This document shows, piece after piece, positions 34,623 through 49,846 of a stretch of DNA of 64,000 nucleotides (positions within the stretch are counted from its first letter, which is position 1; every line of letters starts with the position of its first letter). The notes beneath the pieces were generated by a model that saw only the letters and a program-made list of their open reading frames with translations, did not search any database and was not told where the DNA came from. A program made the position numbers and the translations under genes. This stretch comes from Gammaproteobacteria bacterium (GTDB lineage: Bacteria; Pseudomonadota; Gammaproteobacteria; Ga0077554; Ga007554): assembly GCA_040183005.1 (NCBI GenBank), contig JAMPIW010000002.1:1-64000 (forward strand). Reading direction: 5' to 3'.

Positions 34623-35081
34623 CTACTTATAAACCTGCAAGAACGACTTGGCGTCCTTGAACTGAGACTCGTCGGCGAACTGTCCCAGGTGAAAAACATA
34701 CTGCTGCTTTTTGCCGGACAAATCCAGCCCGGTCAAGGCAAAACTCTTACCCGCAAAATCCGCAAAAAACCGCACACCCTGCACCAGCTCCACCTGCGTA
34801 CCGCTGCGCAACTCCAGGCGTACACGCTGCTTGCCGATATCAATGGCAACCGGCGCCGCCGGTAATATCATCAAGCGGGTTTTTAGGATGCGGTTGGCGC
34901 CTGTCAGTAGAAAAAAAGTGGCCATAAAAACCAACAGATACGCCCAACTCTGGTTCGGTCCAAACCATACTTTAAGGGCGATCGCCACGAGGAATACCAC
35001 AGTCGGTGCGTACAGCAGCAAATCCCAGGTCATGCCCTTGCGGTCCTGAACCAGGACGTAACGCTTTTCTGATTCCGCCAT
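34623..35081 (-). CDS. Small membrane protein of unknown function, end of redox cluster
   Basis: 152 residues that I do not recognise. Two transmembrane helices (about 20-40 and 45-65, the second with W-A-Y-L-L-V-F-M-A-T-F-F) follow a short charged N-terminus; the C-terminal 85 residues are soluble, beta-rich in appearance (V-R-L-E-L-R-S-G-T-Q-V-E-L), reminiscent of small membrane-linked PH-like domains, though that is only an impression. No cofactor-binding motif is visible. It starts one base after the stop of the thioredoxin-like gene, so it is translated as part of the cytochrome/oxidase-like operon, where it might be an assembly or accessory subunit. Confidence 0.65.
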   Translation of the reverse strand: MAESEKRYVLVQDRKGMTWDLLLYAPTVVFLVAIALKVWFGPNQSWAYLLVFMATFFLLTGANRILKTRLMILPAAPVAIDIGKQRVRLELRSGTQVELVQGVRFFADFAGKSFALTGLDLSGKKQQYVFHLGQFADESQFKDAKSFLQVYK

Positions 35082-35082
35082 A

Positions 35083-35682
35083 CTAACCCTTCACCGGCAA
35101 AACGCGGGTAATGGCCGCCTCAAGCTCACCATACAACATACGTCCGGGCTGTTTCGACCGCACCACGCCATCTTTGTCGATCACAAACGTCCAAGGGTCA
35201 CCTTTTACGCGAAAGGCAATAAAAGCTTCGGTATTTTGATATTGATCCATATGCAGGAAAAGCACTTGAGATTCATATTTGGTAAGCAGGGATTTTAACA
35301 TTTGCAACTGCACATCGCACACGGTGCAATGGCCGGGCGTGGCAAATTCCAGAACAATAGGCTTCCCTGTTTTAAGAGCCTCGTCAATCGAATACTGATA
35401 CATCCGTTCATCGGGCTGGCGATAACTGGTGATCTTGCTAAAATCCCCCCCAACATCCGCCAGTGTCTTGGTCCTGAGACTGGGCGCTTTCTGGCCGACC
35501 AACAGGGTGTCCTTGTTATTTCCCCCGTCACACCCGGCAAGCATCAAGCCAACAAACAACGCACAGGCGATACTTGTGCCCTTTAGGGTGCTTGTCCACC
35601 GGAGGGGAGGCTGCGCGCTGCCCTTCAAGGCGTAACGCCGGTTGCCGATATGATTGCCCCCGTGACCGCCAGTCGTTTTCAT
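35083..35682 (-). CDS. Thioredoxin-fold lipoprotein of the redox cluster
   Basis: 199 residues. A basic N-terminus of about 35 residues leads to a hydrophobic stretch and lipobox L-M-L-A-G-C near residue 53, so it is probably a lipoprotein facing the periplasm; the leader is unusually long. The mature part has a thioredoxin-like domain with G-H-C-T-V-C (CxxC) near 120 and a W-T-F-V segment in the cis-Pro position, G-D-P-W. It may reduce disulfides or deliver a metal to the cytochrome partners. The start is fixed by ATGA overlap with the stop of the upstream oxidase-like gene and GGAAAGAG upstream. It lacks the CxxxC of SCO copper chaperones. Confidence 0.78.
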   Translation of the reverse strand: MKTTGGHGGNHIGNRRYALKGSAQPPLRWTSTLKGTSIACALFVGLMLAGCDGGNNKDTLLVGQKAPSLRTKTLADVGGDFSKITSYRQPDERMYQYSIDEALKTGKPIVLEFATPGHCTVCDVQLQMLKSLLTKYESQVLFLHMDQYQNTEAFIAFRVKGDPWTFVIDKDGVVRSKQPGRMLYGELEAAITRVLPVKG

Positions 35683-36206
35683 TGACGCTCTTTCCATCCC
35701 GAGCATGTGCGAAAGATGTTGTATGCCCAAATGCAATTGGCCAGCAATACTATTGAGCCAAACACGCCAACCAATATCATGAAGGGCTTTACGATCGTTT
35801 TAACTTCGTCAGGCGGCATATCCATGCTCGCCAGCCCGCCCATTGTGCCTGCGGCGACAAAAAACACCACCATACCCAACAGCCCAAGATTGTGCGTCCA
35901 GAAATGAACCTTCACTAATTTTAGACTAAAAATGGGCCGCTTCACCAAGCGCGGCACAATGAAGTACACAGACCCAAAAATGGCCATCTCCACCCAGCCC
36001 AGCAAATTGATATGCCCATGACCAAGCATGATCAAATGCGCATGGGGGCGGTTATTAATAAAATCCCGCAGGTCCGGCAGCATGCCTACTACCACACCCC
36101 AGGAAAAACCAATCAAGCTATATATTACGCAGGCATAAAAAAACCATAATGTATAACGCTTATATTCTATTTCGTTCTCATGCAGCCAAGGTTCATTATT
36201 GCTCAT
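35679..36206 (-). CDS. Four-helix relative of heme-copper oxidase subunit I
   Basis: 175 residues with four transmembrane helices (about 20-45, 56-86, 99-122, 139-167). The second helix carries H-A-H-L-I-M-L-G-H-G-H-I-N-L-L-G-W, resembling the region of NorB and cbb3 subunit I that holds the low-spin heme ligand (H-x-N-L), followed by Y-F-I-V-P. Helix three adds H-F-W-T-H. The full enzyme family has 12 helices and over 450 residues; here the helices that carry the copper and high-spin heme ligands are missing. The gene is intact at both ends, not a broken remnant. It overlaps the cytochrome gene before it and the thioredoxin gene after it. It may bind heme b and carry electrons, but cannot reduce oxygen as a normal oxidase. 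Confidence 0.72.
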   Translation of the reverse strand: MSNNEPWLHENEIEYKRYTLWFFYACVIYSLIGFSWGVVVGMLPDLRDFINNRPHAHLIMLGHGHINLLGWVEMAIFGSVYFIVPRLVKRPIFSLKLVKVHFWTHNLGLLGMVVFFVAAGTMGGLASMDMPPDEVKTIVKPFMILVGVFGSIVLLANCIWAYNIFRTCSGWKERQ

Positions 36207-36799
36207 TAGTGCTGATGTTCCTCTCCGACAGGGCCACTACCCTGTGGCTTGTCGCGTATATCTTGATATTTATCCTTCCAGGTTTCCGGTGCGAAGGCTC
36301 CCACCATTCCATCAATAAAGCCAGAGCGTTCCTTCGGGGGCTGGGCAGCAGCCGCGGAGCCGCGATCCGCTCTCAGCTCCGAAAGGAAGACGGCGATTTT
36401 ATGGAGATTCTCTTTAGGCAACGATGATACATAGGCAGCTTCTTTAGGTGGCAAACCATGATCGACTGTCGGTCCGCCATAAGTCTTTTCCGGATCAATG
36501 AAAAAACTTTCGATCCATTGTAAAGAACGCTTGGAGCCAATGCCATCGAGACTCGCGCCCATGTTTGTGCCATTGCGCAACGCCCGATGACAGGAGTTAC
36601 AACGAGCCTCACGATAAATCGCGGAACCCTCCAGCCCCACCGGCGAGAAATCGAAGTGGGTGGTTACGGTAAACATCGGGGCATCGGAGCGCGAGCGTAC
36701 TACTTCCATGGCAATGAATGCGATGATCCCCAATATAAAAAACGCGCCAAAAATACTGAATAGTATCTTTTCGCCGGACTTGAGACGTTGTTTGCTCAT
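36206..36799 (-). CDS. Membrane-anchored monoheme cytochrome c, NorC/CcoO-like
   Basis: 197 residues: an N-terminal anchor at about 13-32 (L-F-S-I-F-G-A-F-F-I-L-G), then a periplasmic domain with a single heme c site C-N-S-C-H near residue 68. The layout resembles NorC or the cytochrome subunit of cbb3-type enzymes. No clear M-P or similar distal methionine pair is seen after the heme site; the nearest methionine is in N-G-T-N-M-G-A-S, too close to be the usual ligand. The tail is rich in P, G, E and H. The stop overlaps the next gene's start by one base. Together they look like the cytochrome and membrane subunits of one complex. Confidence 0.8.
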   Translation of the reverse strand: MSKQRLKSGEKILFSIFGAFFILGIIAFIAMEVVRSRSDAPMFTVTTHFDFSPVGLEGSAIYREARCNSCHRALRNGTNMGASLDGIGSKRSLQWIESFFIDPEKTYGGPTVDHGLPPKEAAYVSSLPKENLHKIAVFLSELRADRGSAAAAQPPKERSGFIDGMVGAFAPETWKDKYQDIRDKPQGSGPVGEEHQH

Positions 36800-36992: not shown

Positions 36993-37012
36993 AAACCAGC
37001 GAACGCCGGTTT
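36993..37012 (-). terminator. Hairpin overlapping the cytochrome c4 stop codon
   Basis: On the minus strand AAACCGG pairs with CTGGTTT around a short loop, directly at the stop codon of the cytochrome c4 gene and followed by TTTTCATC. It could end the c4 transcript or limit readthrough into the membrane cytochrome gene 211 bases on. Confidence 0.5.
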
Positions 37013-37751
37013 AGTGCGGATCGTAAGCGTGGCGCGTATTGCCGCTGGAGTAGAATGAGGTAATCGCCAGATAAGCAGCTGCGTTATTGATGTCATCATC
37101 GGACATCTTTTGCGCGACAGCCCGCATCGCACCCTTCGGGTCATTGGCGCGGCTACCATCACGCCATTTCTTCAATTGATTGACAAGATACACATAACGC
37201 TGCTGGCCAATCATGGGGAAAACCGGCGGGGCGCCCATGCCGTTATATCCGTGGCATGCCTTACAGGCAGGAATGCCCTTTTCGTTCCCGCCCCACTCGA
37301 CCAGCGACTTACCCTTGTGCGGCAAACCAACCACCTGACCTGCGGCCTTCAACTCTTCAAGGTTGGAGACCTTGGTGTCACCATGTTTGCGCAGGCTCGC
37401 CAAGTAAGTCGCAACATCCTTGCGGTCCTGCTCGCTCAGACCCTTGGCGTTAGTATTCATGACGAACATGGTTGTGTCGGTACGTTTGTCGGTTGCGAAA
37501 TCTTCCAGCTGCTTCAAGAGGAAATTATAAAACTGACCGGAGATGCGGGGTGTACCCATGTTGTCGTCGCCCAGCCCTTCGGGACCGTGGCATGAATTAC
37601 ACGCGGGAACACTGCCCTTGCCTTCCGTGAAAATCTTTTTACCATTGGCAAGATCACCGTCACCCTTGGGCCACGCCACACTTGCCATGACTACCGATGG
37701 CAACATTGCCGCCATAAGTACCGCCGCAGTCGAAACTATTACACGTTTCAT
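37011..37751 (-). CDS. Diheme cytochrome c4
   Basis: 246 residues with a Sec signal peptide (MKRVIVSTAAVLMAAMLPSV, cleavage after V-M-A) and two c-type domains: C-N-S-C-H near 52 and C-K-A-C-H near 152. Each is followed by a candidate methionine ligand (T-M-F-V-M-N and Q-K-M-S-D-D). Cytochrome c4 is a periplasmic or membrane-associated electron carrier that delivers electrons to cbb3 oxidases in gammaproteobacteria. It lies upstream of the membrane cytochrome and oxidase-like genes on the same strand and is probably their electron partner, although a hairpin at its end suggests separate control of expression. A strong AGGGTG precedes its ATG. Confidence 0.92.
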   Translation of the reverse strand: MKRVIVSTAAVLMAAMLPSVVMASVAWPKGDGDLANGKKIFTEGKGSVPACNSCHGPEGLGDDNMGTPRISGQFYNFLLKQLEDFATDKRTDTTMFVMNTNAKGLSEQDRKDVATYLASLRKHGDTKVSNLEELKAAGQVVGLPHKGKSLVEWGGNEKGIPACKACHGYNGMGAPPVFPMIGQQRYVYLVNQLKKWRDGSRANDPKGAMRAVAQKMSDDDINNAAAYLAITSFYSSGNTRHAYDPH

Positions 37752-37924
37752 CTTAAAGACACCCTCCCAAGTATTTAACCATTCTTATCACCCTGCGGCT
37801 CAAGCTCGGCAGGCGGGCAGATCCAGCATGGGATCGCCAACCATAAACAGAGCCGACCCGCAGGGTCCCACCCGCACGACACACCGCCTCTTTTGTTGAA
37901 AGCCCTCAACCCCATCAAGCGGGA

Positions 37925-38017
37925 TCAGGAGTTCATCTTAACCAAAAGTGCCGCAAAAACAAACGCCCCAGTAAACCAGATCGCGTAGATAGTAAAGACT
38001 TCAGCCGAGTACATCAT
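37925..38017 (-). CDS. 30-residue single-helix membrane peptide upstream of cytochrome c4
   Basis: A very short gene starting ATGATG at 38017 with GTGGAGG upstream at a good spacing. The product begins MMYSAEVFTIYAIWFTGAFV and ends K-M-N-S, essentially one transmembrane helix with a short polar end. Such peptides are common as small subunits of respiratory complexes (for example CcoQ-like or CydX-like). I do not recognise this sequence. It is co-directional with the cytochrome c4 gene 173 bases downstream and divergent from the membrane glycosyltransferase-like gene. A small subunit of the neighbouring cytochrome complex is a reasonable inference, not shown. Confidence 0.65.
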   Translation of the reverse strand: MMYSAEVFTIYAIWFTGAFVFAALLVKMNS

Positions 38018-38277
38018 ATTTAATCGCCTCCACTTTTTATGAGTCACCCTATAACTAGAGCCTGAATATTATATTTTTTTATCCAAGCTTTGGGATATAT
38101 AACATGACACATAATATTAATGCAAGCACTATCCCCTCCAATCCATGAGTGATAATTTTACCTAATTAAATTACCCTGCTGTCCTGCTGCTGTCATAATA
38201 GAACAGATGCTTCAAGCCGCATATCTATCCAAACATGTTACGCTAAAAAAGAAAACTTAAACTCCAAAGGAAAGTCA
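38018..38277. promoter_or_regulatory. AT-rich divergent intergenic region
   Basis: This 260-base gap separates the 30-residue peptide gene (minus) from the glycosyltransferase-like gene (plus). It is clearly richer in A and T than its surroundings, with runs such as TATTATATTTTTTTAT near 38065 and ATAATATTAAT near 38112, as expected for a divergent promoter region. I could not assign a convincing -35/-10 pair or an FNR-type site by eye. Confidence 0.4.
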
Positions 38278-39660
38278 ATGCAATACCGCATGTCAGGCCG
38301 CCATCTGGGCCTGTTAGCCATGATTATCTGGGGCGGCGCGATACTAGCGCTGGGTCTGGTCAGCTTTGAACCCTACAGACTGGATGAAGGCGCCGCCAGG
38401 GGGCTGCTGCTAAATTGGTCTGTCGTCGACAATATTGCCAGCCCCATTGTCATTTTTGGACTCCCTGACTTCCGGGCATTGTTTTTTATTCCGCTGGGGC
38501 TGTATTGGTCAGGCAGCATTATCGCGGCCAAGGTATATACCTTAATGATGGCCTTCTCTGCCATCCTACTCCTCTACTCCTGGAGCCGCAAAATCAGCGG
38601 CATAGAAGCCGCACTGATTTCCAGCGCATTACTGGCAATCTCACCGCTCATGATCACACAGGTTGACGCCATTGGCGCGGGTCCCTACCTACTTCTGATA
38701 TTTGGCCTGGGCGCTTGGCTGGACAAGACTTATCGCGCGGCACAACGTCCACTGAGCGGCTGGTTTTTCCTGCAACTTTTGGCCGTCGGCACCAGCGTTA
38801 CCCTGCATCCTGCCGGGCTGGCTTACCCGCTGGCTCTGATGTGGCGATGGTATAAAGATCCCACCGATGCCCGCCAGAAAAGACATGTACTTATCGGCGC
38901 CACCCTAATCACGACCATCGTCTTGATCATGCGGCTGGGATGGCCCGACATAGCGTGGTGGAACAACCCTGTCGCCACACTGGGCCTGGTGAATCTGGGC
39001 AATCCACTGGAAGAACCAAGCTGGATCGTCGGCGTCCTGTCCTCTACATTATTGCTGTTGGTACTGTGGCTGGAGAGACGTGCGCTACTGAATGATCTAA
39101 TGGGCACTATGCTGCTACTGAGCCTGTTGATCGGCCTTGCCGCCGCTGACGCCACATGGGCCATGCTGGCGCTGGTGCTGGTTTTATACCGTGGGGTGCC
39201 GCGCCTGATCGCCACAAACAAAACCAGCATGATGGGCCGTTATGGGGTGGTGATGATAGTCATGCTGATTGTTTCTATGTCGTTCATGCTTGCGGATAAA
39301 AGCTATGCGCGCATCATACAAGACGGCGAATTAAGCCCCGAAGATCAGCTCATCAAGCTGCTCGCCATGGAGGCATCGGACACCAAGCAGCCCTTCCGCG
39401 CCGCCAGCCAATGGCCGGCCCGCACCATGATCGCATGCAAGCGTGACGTGCTGCCGTTGCCGCCGCCCGCCAAGGACGGGGAAACCCTGCTCAAGACGAT
39501 CAAGGGCATTACGCACCTTACCTTCAACCCCTACAATCCCGCCTTTCGGGAGCTTGGGCGCAACATTGCTCAATTGGGCGCTGCAACACAAACGCTGGCG
39601 CTGCAACAAGGGGGGGTGATTATTAAAATACGGCAGCCGGCCAAACCGGCCGCCCAATAG
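38278..39660 (+). CDS. Polytopic membrane protein, GT39/PMT-like glycosyltransferase
   Basis: 460 residues with about ten hydrophobic helices spread over the first 350 residues, then a soluble C-terminal part of about 110. Near the N-terminus it has Y-R-L-D-E-G-A-A-R-G after the first helix, matching the position of the catalytic acidic motif in ArnT/PMT-type GT-C enzymes, which transfer sugars from polyprenyl-phosphate donors on the periplasmic side. The rest is too divergent for a firm family call. AAAGGA at good spacing supports the start. It stands alone with no sugar-donor genes nearby. The stop codon is embedded in the palindrome GGCCGCCCAATAGGGCGGCC, probably a terminator. Confidence 0.65.
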   Translation: MQYRMSGRHLGLLAMIIWGGAILALGLVSFEPYRLDEGAARGLLLNWSVVDNIASPIVIFGLPDFRALFFIPLGLYWSGSIIAAKVYTLMMAFSAILLLYSWSRKISGIEAALISSALLAISPLMITQVDAIGAGPYLLLIFGLGAWLDKTYRAAQRPLSGWFFLQLLAVGTSVTLHPAGLAYPLALMWRWYKDPTDARQKRHVLIGATLITTIVLIMRLGWPDIAWWNNPVATLGLVNLGNPLEEPSWIVGVLSSTLLLLVLWLERRALLNDLMGTMLLLSLLIGLAAADATWAMLALVLVLYRGVPRLIATNKTSMMGRYGVVMIVMLIVSMSFMLADKSYARIIQDGELSPEDQLIKLLAMEASDTKQPFRAASQWPARTMIACKRDVLPLPPPAKDGETLLKTIKGITHLTFNPYNPAFRELGRNIAQLGAATQTLALQQGGVIIKIRQPAKPAAQ

Positions 39661-46477: not shown

Positions 46478-47548
46478 ATGGGAAAAAACTACGATCAATT
46501 GAGTATTGAAGAGCGGGCAATGATACAAACGCAACTGGAGATGGGGGTCAAACCTGCCGCAATTGCCAAGTCCATAACCCGGTCAGCCTCTACCGTCTCA
46601 CGTGAACTTCGGCGCAATGGCTGGAGCCGCCCGAAAACGCCTCGCGGCCCTGGACGACCGGCTGTGGCGGGAGGCTATCGTGCCGAGGCAGCCCACAAAC
46701 GTGCGCATGGCTGCACGATCAAGCCGCGTGTTGAGGGTCGCCTGCGACTGGGAACCACGCTGTGGGATTCAGTCATGCGCCACCTGAAAGCAGGCTACTC
46801 ACCGGAGCAGATTGCTGGCACACTGGCGCTTGTGCATCCAGATACCCCTACCTTGCAGGTTTCCCATGAGACCATCTACACCGCCATCTACGCCATGCCG
46901 CGTGGCGAACTGCGCACGGAAGTGATTGGCTGGTTGCGTTTCGGCCATGCCAAGCGCCGTCCCCGTGCGCGTGGCGAAGACCGGCGCGGACGGATTCCTG
47001 ACATGGTCAGCATTCATGACCGTCCGCCTGAGATTGAAGAGCGGTTGATCCCGGGCCACTGGGAGGGTGACTTCATCAAGGGCGCGCATAATCGCTCATC
47101 TGTCGGTACGCTGGTGGAACGGACCACGCTGTTCACGGTACTGGCAAAAATGGAAAATGCCACTGCTGAGGCGACGTTGACCGGCTTCAGTCATGTGCTC
47201 AACCGCATTGATGCGCAAAAGCGCCTCTCGTTGACGTACGATCAAGGCAGGGAAATGGCGGCACACCAACGGCTGACAGAAACCACAGGGGTGAAAGTAT
47301 ATTTTGCCGATCCACACAGCCCCTGGCAGCGCGGCATCAACGAGAATACCAATGGTCTGTTGCGGCAGTACCTGCCCAAGGGGAGTGACTTGAGTGGTTT
47401 CACGCAGGAGGAGCTGGATGCGATTGCCTGGCAACTCAATACCCGACCACGCAAGTCACTGGGCTTCAAATGCCCAGCCGAGTTGTTTACACCAGACTCT
47501 TTCGATTTCAGGCAGCATCACGCTGCGCTTTTTGCACTTGGTCATTGA
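46478..47548 (+). CDS. IS30-family transposase
   Basis: 356 residues. N-terminal helix-turn-helix (L-S-I-E-E-R-A-M-I and I-A-K-S-I-T-R-S-A-S-T-V-S-R-E-L-R-R-N near 27-47) typical of IS30, then the DDE core: D in H-W-E-G-D-F-I-K-G near 195, D in L-T-Y-D-Q-G-R-E-M near 252, and E in G-I-N-E-N-T-N-G near 288. The frame is complete, so the enzyme is probably active. A ribosome binding site AGGGGATAATGTTGC precedes the ATG with unusual spacing. Codon use is similar to neighbouring genes. Confidence 0.95.
   Translation: MGKNYDQLSIEERAMIQTQLEMGVKPAAIAKSITRSASTVSRELRRNGWSRPKTPRGPGRPAVAGGYRAEAAHKRAHGCTIKPRVEGRLRLGTTLWDSVMRHLKAGYSPEQIAGTLALVHPDTPTLQVSHETIYTAIYAMPRGELRTEVIGWLRFGHAKRRPRARGEDRRGRIPDMVSIHDRPPEIEERLIPGHWEGDFIKGAHNRSSVGTLVERTTLFTVLAKMENATAEATLTGFSHVLNRIDAQKRLSLTYDQGREMAAHQRLTETTGVKVYFADPHSPWQRGINENTNGLLRQYLPKGSDLSGFTQEELDAIAWQLNTRPRKSLGFKCPAELFTPDSFDFRQHHAALFALGH
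47532..47542. repeat. Right inverted repeat of the IS30-family element
   Basis: TTGCACTTGGT, inverse of 46445-46455, lying within the transposase's last codons and three bases before a possible TTG start of the phosphoesterase gene. Confidence 0.75.
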
Positions 47549-48468: not shown

Positions 48469-49846
48469 GGCTCTTCGCGTGATCGTGTGGGTAAATTTCA
48501 TGTTTTTTAGAGCCTCGGGAGCATAGACGTGAGTATTTTTAGTCGCAGATATTCTTCATCGCGCAGACCATATGCACGGCGTTGGATTACGCGTATCTTA
48601 TTGTTGAGCCCCTCAACAAAGCCGAGTGAAACTTTATTCTCTGGCTTGCAATAGGCTGCGATCCCATCCCAATGGCGCTCAATCATCTCGGCAAATTTCT
48701 CGTAAGGTTTCAGGCGCTGCCACTTCAGGCTGGTTTTCCAATTCTCGAAGAAACGCCGCGCCCATGCTTCGCTCCTGTAATCCCACAACTGGCCAAACGA
48801 CTCTTTCAGCAGGTACGCCGTGTTCAGCCGTTTGTTCGCTGCCAGCAAAGCCTTCAAAGAACGTCTGCCGTCCAGTGTCATATTTTCGTGATTGGAAAGC
48901 AGTACGTATTTCTGCCCCTTAATGTAGCGCCTATCCTTGCCCTGAAGACGTGCATATTCCATCTTTCTGACTTTATCCAGAGCATCGCCGAGATGGCTCA
49001 TGATGTGGAATTTGTCGAACAGGATGGCCGCCTGCGGGGCGCGTTCGTTGGTTACGTTACGAAAGGGCTTCCACATATCCATCACTGCAAGACAAATGCC
49101 TTTGGATTTCTTCTCTCCCAGCCAGTCATAGAACTGTCGCATGCTGTCCTCCGAACGGTCGGCACCGCCAAACCAGATGGGACGACCACGGATCAAGTCG
49201 CTGACTACAATGCGATAGGTATGTCCTTTGCGAATCGATATTTCGTCGATGCCAATGGCCTTGGGTGCTGGCGTTCCGGCGCGTTCCAGTTGCGCGGTCA
49301 TGTATTGCTTGTCCAGTTCCTTGACGGTGTGCCAGTCCAGAAGCAATTCGCGGGCAATGTCCGACACCGTGCTGGCGCGACACCGTCTGCCTACATACCA
49401 AGAAAATCGCTTTGTATAGAGTGGGTTGTCGGCGAGAAAGTCGAGTCGTTCGCGTTTCACTTTCCCGCAGTGCCGACAAAGCACCCGTCGAATTTCGATT
49501 TCCAGATAGATACGTGTGTCGCCACAGGAGAGGTCGCGAACTCGTCGAAGCCTCTTGTCGTACCAACCAGAGCGCGTTCTGCCGCAACTGTTGCAGGCCG
49601 TTTTTTTGAGCGCCGAACGAGCGTGATGATCCGTGCTTTGGAGTCGCCAAAGATGCCGCGTATCTTTTCCAGCGGGCGAAAACAGGGGAATCGGTATGCG
49701 TCGAGAATGCGTTTGGGTTTGCGTGAAATAGCCATTGAAAAAACCTCCCATTTTCTGCAACAGGTGCAGGATGCATTTTGCCTGATGCCACAAGGCTTGC
49801 GGAGGTTTTCATGTTAAATTTCACCCACTCGATTTCACGAAGACCC
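48469..49846 (-). mobile_element. ISL3-family insertion sequence
   Basis: About 1378 bases. The ends are imperfect inverted repeats: GGCTCTTCGCGTGATCG...GTGGGT at 48469-48495 and, read inward from 49846, GGGTCTTCGTGAAATCG...GTGGGT, matching at about 19 of 24 positions. It is flanked by an 8-base duplication TAAAAAAA. The single transposase gene runs on the minus strand. The target is the T-tract of the rpoC terminator. Confidence 0.9.
48507..49793 (-). CDS. ISL3-family transposase
   Basis: About 428 residues from the ATG at 49793. N-terminal zinc-finger-like pairs (C-N-S-C near 68 and C-R-H-C near 107) are followed by a helix-turn-helix, then the DDE core: D in I-G-I-D-E-I-S-I near 183, D in A-V-M-D-M-W-K-P-F near 238, and E in G-F-V-E-G-L-N-N near 392, the standard ISL3 signature. 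The frame is unbroken. The N-terminal 60 residues are less certain, and the true start may lie a few codons away. A second, overlapping frame on the same strand is not family sequence. Confidence 0.93.
   Translation of the reverse strand: MWHQAKCILHLLQKMGGFFNGYFTQTQTHSRRIPIPLFSPAGKDTRHLWRLQSTDHHARSALKKTACNSCGRTRSGWYDKRLRRVRDLSCGDTRIYLEIEIRRVLCRHCGKVKRERLDFLADNPLYTKRFSWYVGRRCRASTVSDIARELLLDWHTVKELDKQYMTAQLERAGTPAPKAIGIDEISIRKGHTYRIVVSDLIRGRPIWFGGADRSEDSMRQFYDWLGEKKSKGICLAVMDMWKPFRNVTNERAPQAAILFDKFHIMSHLGDALDKVRKMEYARLQGKDRRYIKGQKYVLLSNHENMTLDGRRSLKALLAANKRLNTAYLLKESFGQLWDYRSEAWARRFFENWKTSLKWQRLKPYEKFAEMIERHWDGIAAYCKPENKVSLGFVEGLNNKIRVIQRRAYGLRDEEYLRLKILTSMLPRL

Follow-up and report, generated by a model that had tools for sequence, protein, structure and literature searches.

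CcoM is a single helix whose gene is not known to lie beside a c4 gene, and CydX/CbdX of cytochrome bd is likewise a small single-helix respiratory subunit. In the ccoQ-ccoP gene order, the CcoQ (FixQ) gene lies directly before the gene of the diheme cytochrome CcoP, which is membrane-anchored. The part of PMC10433244 dealing with known cbb3 oxidases lists CcoM (36 aa) and CcoQ (61 aa) as their small subunits, and passages of PMC7029218 and PMC8788666 place 'proximal' and 'distal' cbb3 types in Zetaproteobacteria and Sideroxydans. A section of PMC5371394 describes Cyc1 as a shuttle of the diheme c4 type; sections of the same paper and of PMC7029218 and PMC8788666 propose it as an electron carrier and present the electron route from periplasmic carrier to terminal oxidase as unsettled in lithotrophs, among them a biocathode organism and the neutrophilic iron oxidisers. 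Two solved entries (8smr and 8snh) list a cytochrome c4 chain, and since the title of 8smr names a bc1-cbb3 supercomplex from Pseudomonas aeruginosa, c4 can belong to a membrane complex.

In the window (the whole stretch of 64,000 nucleotides analysed here), we found a gene for a 30-residue peptide with one predicted helix ahead of a cytochrome c4 gene. As with CcoQ (FixQ), the gene of a single-helix peptide immediately precedes that of a diheme c-type cytochrome, but the peptide has no sequence match to CcoQ, is about half as long and has a signal-peptide c4 as its partner instead of CcoP; nor does its cluster have the ccoNOQP gene order. Like CcoM of the Pseudomonas stutzeri cbb3 oxidase it is a short respiratory peptide, whereas it differs from CydX/CbdX, for which the best E value was 0.14 (2 of 28 peptides) and whose cydAB genes were not present in the peptide's cluster. 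A likeness also exists with the Cyc1-type c4 of neutrophilic iron oxidisers: in Mariprofundus ferrooxydans PV-1 a single c4 matches that of the window (E <= 1e-10), and a peptide of the same kind precedes it; we infer that this PV-1 c4 is the published Cyc1.

The peptide gene and its conservation

The gene occupies positions 37925..38017 of the minus strand, from its first ATG (38017-38015) to its stop codon (37927-37925), and its 30 codons encode MMYSAEVFTIYAIWFTGAFVFAALLVKMNS. A GGAGG ribosome binding site was localised at 38027..38031 on the same strand, 9 nt before the ATG. The plus strand of the same interval contained no start codon and its translation was charged and non-hydrophobic. 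The sequence-only reading had proposed a 30-codon single-helix gene with a strong GGAGG site at this place, heading a cytochrome cluster and on the same strand as c4 and oxidase-like genes. Its coordinates proved correct, the gene being real, conserved and on the minus strand; c4 is the next gene, followed by the CcoO-like and CcoN-like genes, all on the minus strand.

The helix is predicted from a single hydrophobic segment of the peptide, whose 19-residue hydropathy is 2.07. Acidic residues precede this segment and a lysine follows it, hence the predicted N-out, C-in topology. When both strands of the 64 kb were scanned for ORFs of 25-60 codons that combine a ribosome site of 5 nt or more with a 19-residue hydropathy of 1.8 or more, this ORF alone qualified; the peptide was found as a single copy in the window's genome.

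The peptide was present in all seven other family genomes examined, and its frame, its length of 30 codons and its ribosome site were kept in all eight. Synonymous and nonsynonymous changes, whose ratio across homologues the earlier reading had proposed as a check, gave a pS of 0.556, a pN of 0.073 and a pN/pS of 0.131 when the eight family genomes were pooled. Between the window and its relative L034, 23 nucleotide changes produced only 6 amino-acid changes, while random placement of the same 23 changes produced a mean of 14.8, with fewer than 9 in none of 2000 trials. Three genome pairs, which share members and are not independent, had fewer amino-acid changes than random placement (P of 0.0015 in one pair and 0/2000 in the other two). 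The peptide gene is under purifying selection. Loss of the frame or of the ribosome site in close relatives, which had been named as the sign of a spurious gene, was not seen, because peptide and site occurred in all the family genomes examined, with fewer amino-acid changes than random placement gives. The selection test and the 64-kb scan together ruled out a chance ORF as the origin of the frame.

Among 28 aligned peptides, Y11, A22 and K27 were invariant and most of the sequences ended in KxNS. A ribosome site of at least 4 nt preceded the peptide in 50 of 51 relatives, where the starts had been picked with the site in view. A predicted helix, conservation and a fixed partner gene were all found, and they make the peptide a candidate, as a functional kind, for the small single-helix subunits of respiratory complexes.

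Genes downstream of the peptide

The conserved cluster runs in the order peptide, c4, CcoO-like, CcoN-part, thioredoxin-like and a 152-aa ORF, all on the minus strand. The diheme c4 (37011..37751, 246 aa) has two CXXCH motifs in two Cytochrom_C-type domains and, by eye, an apparent cleavable signal peptide. It is followed by a membrane-anchored monoheme cytochrome c that is weakly CcoO/FixO-like (36206..36799, 197 aa), a COX1-like membrane protein similar to the C-terminal part of CcoN (35679..36206, 175 aa), a thioredoxin-like protein with CTVC (35083..35736, start codon uncertain) and, as the last gene, a 152-aa protein with a hydrophobic segment that belongs to no family (34623..35081).

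The only strong match of the CcoN-like protein was to the last third of CcoN (about residues 331-461); other CcoN helices and the start of NorB gave weaker ones. Its structure model, built from 9 sequences (mean pLDDT of 74), was closest to CcoN (TM-score of 0.56-0.72 according to query length, best E of 1.4e-3). In all nine aligned sequences H63 and H65 were invariant, and we take them to be heme ligands. The operon had been called oxidase-like; having 175 residues against about 470, the CcoN-like neighbour is too short for a full oxidase subunit and is not a full-length catalytic subunit I.

A full-length ccoN does exist in the window's genome, at about 369 kb of the same contig and outside the cluster. 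That region (L153, G000 C2:360000-379000) carries ccoN together with a FixO-like gene and, apart from these, a monoheme cytochrome that is also FixO-like, with no diheme CcoP among the ORFs listed around ccoN; c4 might stand in for CcoP. A second part-size CcoN relative (L042) was localised at C2:122736-123206 of G000 (COX1, E of 6e-11), near an iron-sulfur protein that is presumably CcoG-like.

This neighbourhood could mean that the peptide is a structural subunit, CcoQ- or CcoM-like, of a membrane complex formed by the CcoN-part and CcoO-like proteins, with c4 a mere neighbour. The CcoN/CcoO-like genes lie on the same strand and in the same cluster as the peptide, four sister genomes (L038-L041; ORFs listed for L038 and L039) have a full-length ccoN shortly downstream of the cluster, and small subunits are a feature of cbb3 oxidases in the part of PMC10433244 devoted to them. 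We nevertheless consider this explanation rather unlikely, since FixQ/CcoQ models did not match the peptide, the 22 zetaproteobacterial CcoO/CcoN-like clusters lacking c4 also lacked the peptide, and in zetaproteobacteria the peptides adjoin c4 genes located elsewhere, as described below.

Association of the peptide with cytochrome c4

The set of named loci was formed by the best 80 of 218 relatives in a scan with the CcoN-like protein. In 51 of these 80 loci c4 was accompanied by a peptide detected with the profile, and in four more (L059, L066, L100 and L121) by a divergent peptide recognised by inspection; thus all 55 cluster c4 genes with visible upstream DNA carried the peptide or a divergent version of it. 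In L083 the c4 gene was cut by the contig end, and L061 and L071, without c4, lay at contig ends. The other 22 loci, all zetaproteobacterial, had visible upstream DNA and no c4, and the gamma profile detected no peptide in any of these 22 among the best 80. Because the gamma profile performs poorly on zetaproteobacterial peptides, the 22 c4-less clusters were scanned again without a profile and with zetaproteobacterial profiles; the best match of the latter had 12.1 bits (E of 0.087, in L097), in a frame starting just before the CcoO-like gene.

The seeds of the peptide profile were drawn from the loci that were later counted, and therefore a profile-free test was used, in which a membrane ORF with a strong ribosome site was sought before c4. 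Within the best 80 of 218 relatives, such an ORF preceded the gammaproteobacterial cluster c4 in 53 of 54 cases, L091 being the exception because it lacks a good ribosome site; it also preceded 10 of 12 zetaproteobacterial c4s. It preceded none of 13 other c4s, which were those non-cluster matches of a longer list that had a locus available and which include L224, placed inside the peptide-bearing group by the tree; nor was it found before the CcoO-like gene in any of the 22 c4-less clusters of the best 80.

The zetaproteobacterial c4s came from 10 of the 12 genomes searched, after one of 13 initial matches (L206, with seven CXXCH) was dropped as a non-c4. Only one of the 12 (L121 and L197, which are the same gene) lay close to a CcoO/CcoN-like cluster. 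Immediately upstream of ten of them lay the gene of a single-helix peptide of 44-48 residues, preceded by a GGGAGG site, and all ten c4-bearing genomes held at least one peptide-c4 pair. One such pair belongs to the iron oxidiser M. ferrooxydans PV-1, whose c4 sequence runs into scaffold Ns. Divergently upstream of four zetaproteobacterial pairs (L199, L202, L205 and L201) there was a short protein resembling, by eye, the part-size CcoN.

Searches of 369 genomes from the class found the CcoN-like gene in 34 (E <= 1e-30) and the peptide in 30 (E <= 1e-5), with 29 in common. All six mismatches are explained by contig ends or by a divergent peptide. Among the genomes with the CcoN-like gene and no peptide detected by the profile, the contigs of G016 and G357 stop inside c4, and G235, G332 and G119 (the last apparently through L066) have a divergent peptide; in the sole peptide-only genome the contig also stops inside c4. 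Weaker matches of the peptide profile (E of 9e-4 to 0.05) look like chance, because many sit inside long reading frames. The locus and genome surveys are not independent, since named loci and genomes overlap (L045 appears to be in G001, and L121 is L197).

A tree of 48 c4s placed 35 with the peptide and 3 without it on one side, with 100/100 support, and the 10 others apart. The peptide label required 3 changes on this tree versus 11.5 after shuffling. Besides that of the window, the tree included 22 of the 51 gammaproteobacterial c4s; L230, L236 and PV-1 (cut by N) were omitted and the root served only for drawing. The three peptide-less c4s inside the group were L195, L198 and the long-branch L224. 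L195 and L198 are second c4 copies in two zetaproteobacterial genomes whose other c4 has the peptide, and we regard them as natural losses of the peptide that are worth comparing.

The peptide tracks c4, not the CcoN/CcoO-like genes, because clusters without c4 are without the peptide while the relocated zetaproteobacterial c4 genes have it. It accompanies the Cyc1-like c4 clade, and its gene is kept by selection.

Relatedness of the peptides and family searches

The divergent f113-type and the zetaproteobacterial peptides are clearly related by sequence, with median scores of 20 and 36 bits in the two directions and shuffled maxima of about 12. A gamma-only profile scored above the shuffled 99th percentile for 4 of 9 zetaproteobacterial and 0 of 5 f113-type peptides, and the 30-residue form is tied more weakly to the longer peptides, by a shared T-G-D/E-V...Y start and by its position. 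The 30-residue gammaproteobacterial and the 44-48-residue zetaproteobacterial peptides are likely to be one family, short of proof because the direct profile similarity between these two forms is weak.

Neither the window peptide nor the 28 aligned members had a credible match in Pfam, NCBIfam or the PDB, including the FixQ/CcoQ family models of Pfam and NCBIfam, and nothing in NCBIfam fell below an E of 0.11. The kinship with CcoQ or CydX that had been suggested for the peptide was not supported: in these searches the peptides cleared the cut-off of no Pfam or NCBIfam model, and none of the solved chains was a credible match, a comparison of low power at 30 residues with a set that may lack a CcoM chain. 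Several candidates remained under their cut-offs, namely DUF2788 (E of 0.019, 2 of 28 peptides), DUF4212 (0.039), YoaP (0.12) and Gram_pos_anchor (0.19) with one peptide each, DUF5325 with a divergent f113-type peptide (0.0061) and HRG with a zetaproteobacterial peptide (0.044). PsbT was also rejected (E of 0.14, one peptide), and a PDB profile match to viral 3C proteases (E of 1.4) was discarded as a short 'AFxxAxxxKxNS' match.

One of these searches bears on the idea that the peptide is a helper in the maturation or export of c4, acting in heme attachment as a CcmD-like adaptor and absent from the mature complex. The peptide of L106 scored 20.4 bits (E of 5.6e-4) against Pfam CcmD_alt, and a thioredoxin-like protein is encoded in the cluster. 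However, this score is under the cut-off of 23.5 and was obtained by 1 of 28 peptides, three others scored up to 19.0 bits against a different model that they also failed to pass (DUF4244, best E of 9.3e-4), and other c4 genes manage without the peptide, as none of the 13 outside the clusters had one. We judge a helper of this type to be quite unlikely.

Upstream element and the interval between the peptide and c4

A promoter-like element is proposed, from its conservation, at 38096..38125 of the minus strand, consisting of TTGCAT (38125-38120), 18 nt and TATATA (38101-38096). The motif CATGNTATAYA lies 89 nt before the peptide ATG in the window. Besides the window gene, 16 of 51 related genes (the 16 being non-independent) carried it in their upstream 250 nt, as compared with 9 of 2040 pieces drawn at random from these loci. 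A scan with the sigma-70 consensus called no promoter at this element.

The interval between the peptide and c4 (37752..37924, minus strand) measures 173 nt and is poorly conserved. In Gammaproteobacteria it varied from 87 to 284 nt; the 409 nt of L107 are doubtful, the c4 start having been chosen automatically. As the first ORF of the presumed transcript at such a distance before c4, with a conserved C-terminus, the peptide could be a regulatory leader that controls c4 expression through its translation, its product itself being unimportant. The intervals of 49 relatives folded with a mean z of -0.71 versus -0.60 for c4 coding DNA, and although 4 of the 49 had a z below -2, a structured RNA element in the interval was unsupported on average. 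A leader is disfavoured because the intervals do not, on average, exceed coding DNA in structure and because that of PV-1 spans just 29 nt, c4 having its own ribosome site there; amino-acid conservation spanning the entire helix also argues against it, and we hold it to be very improbable.

Proposed role of the peptide

The explanation we prefer, and regard as somewhat probable, is that these peptides form a new single-helix family whose role would be to dock, tether or assemble Cyc1-like c4 at the inner membrane. We infer that the gene is translated and co-transcribed with c4, so that the peptide would be made together with the diheme c4 of the Cyc1-like clade. It would cross the inner membrane once, its acidic N-terminus probably periplasmic and its KxNS C-terminus cytoplasmic, and most likely it would bind c4, or the membrane receptor of c4, and hold or assemble c4 at the membrane. 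There c4 may be kept beside the CcoO-like and CcoN-part-like proteins of the cluster and may pass electrons on as a docked subunit instead of acting solely as a free shuttle. The sequence of the c4s does not itself point to docking, since their apparent signal peptide is of the ordinary kind. By analogy, our best reading is that the peptide may resemble CcoQ or CcoM in its way of working, without a match to any known family.

A broader proposal, which we advance tentatively as possible and less than probable, is that Cyc1-type c4, in Gamma- and Zetaproteobacteria alike, has this unnamed micropeptide family as its obligate partner in the membrane, and that the 'free shuttle' is a membrane-docked subunit associated with part-size CcoN/CcoO relatives. 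If true, neutrophilic iron oxidisers would have, as a docked subunit of an electron-transfer complex, the carrier that is supposed to shuttle freely in their periplasm. A peptide staying with c4 even away from the oxidase-like cluster would offer a specific handle on the electron route of c4, and a family of 28-48 residues occurs in two classes with no model in Pfam or NCBIfam. The consulted portions of PMC5371394, PMC7029218, PMC8788666, PMC3179512, PMC10433244 and PMC10654088 make no mention of a peptide ahead of c4, nor was one found in the titles and abstract openings covered by a literature search; an unannotated or 'hypothetical protein' entry may exist.

Other genes of the window

Thiosulfate oxidation was rejected as a lifestyle, no SoxB having been found above the cut-off in the window's genome. 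Divergent from the peptide, at 38278-39660 of the plus strand, there is a 460-residue hydrophobic protein with no Pfam family, whose synteny is kept in family members and in several sister genomes. Two transposase genes lie close together, one of the ISL3 type at 48507-49793 (minus strand) and one of the HTH_38/rve type at 46478-47548 (plus strand), which we take to be IS30-like.
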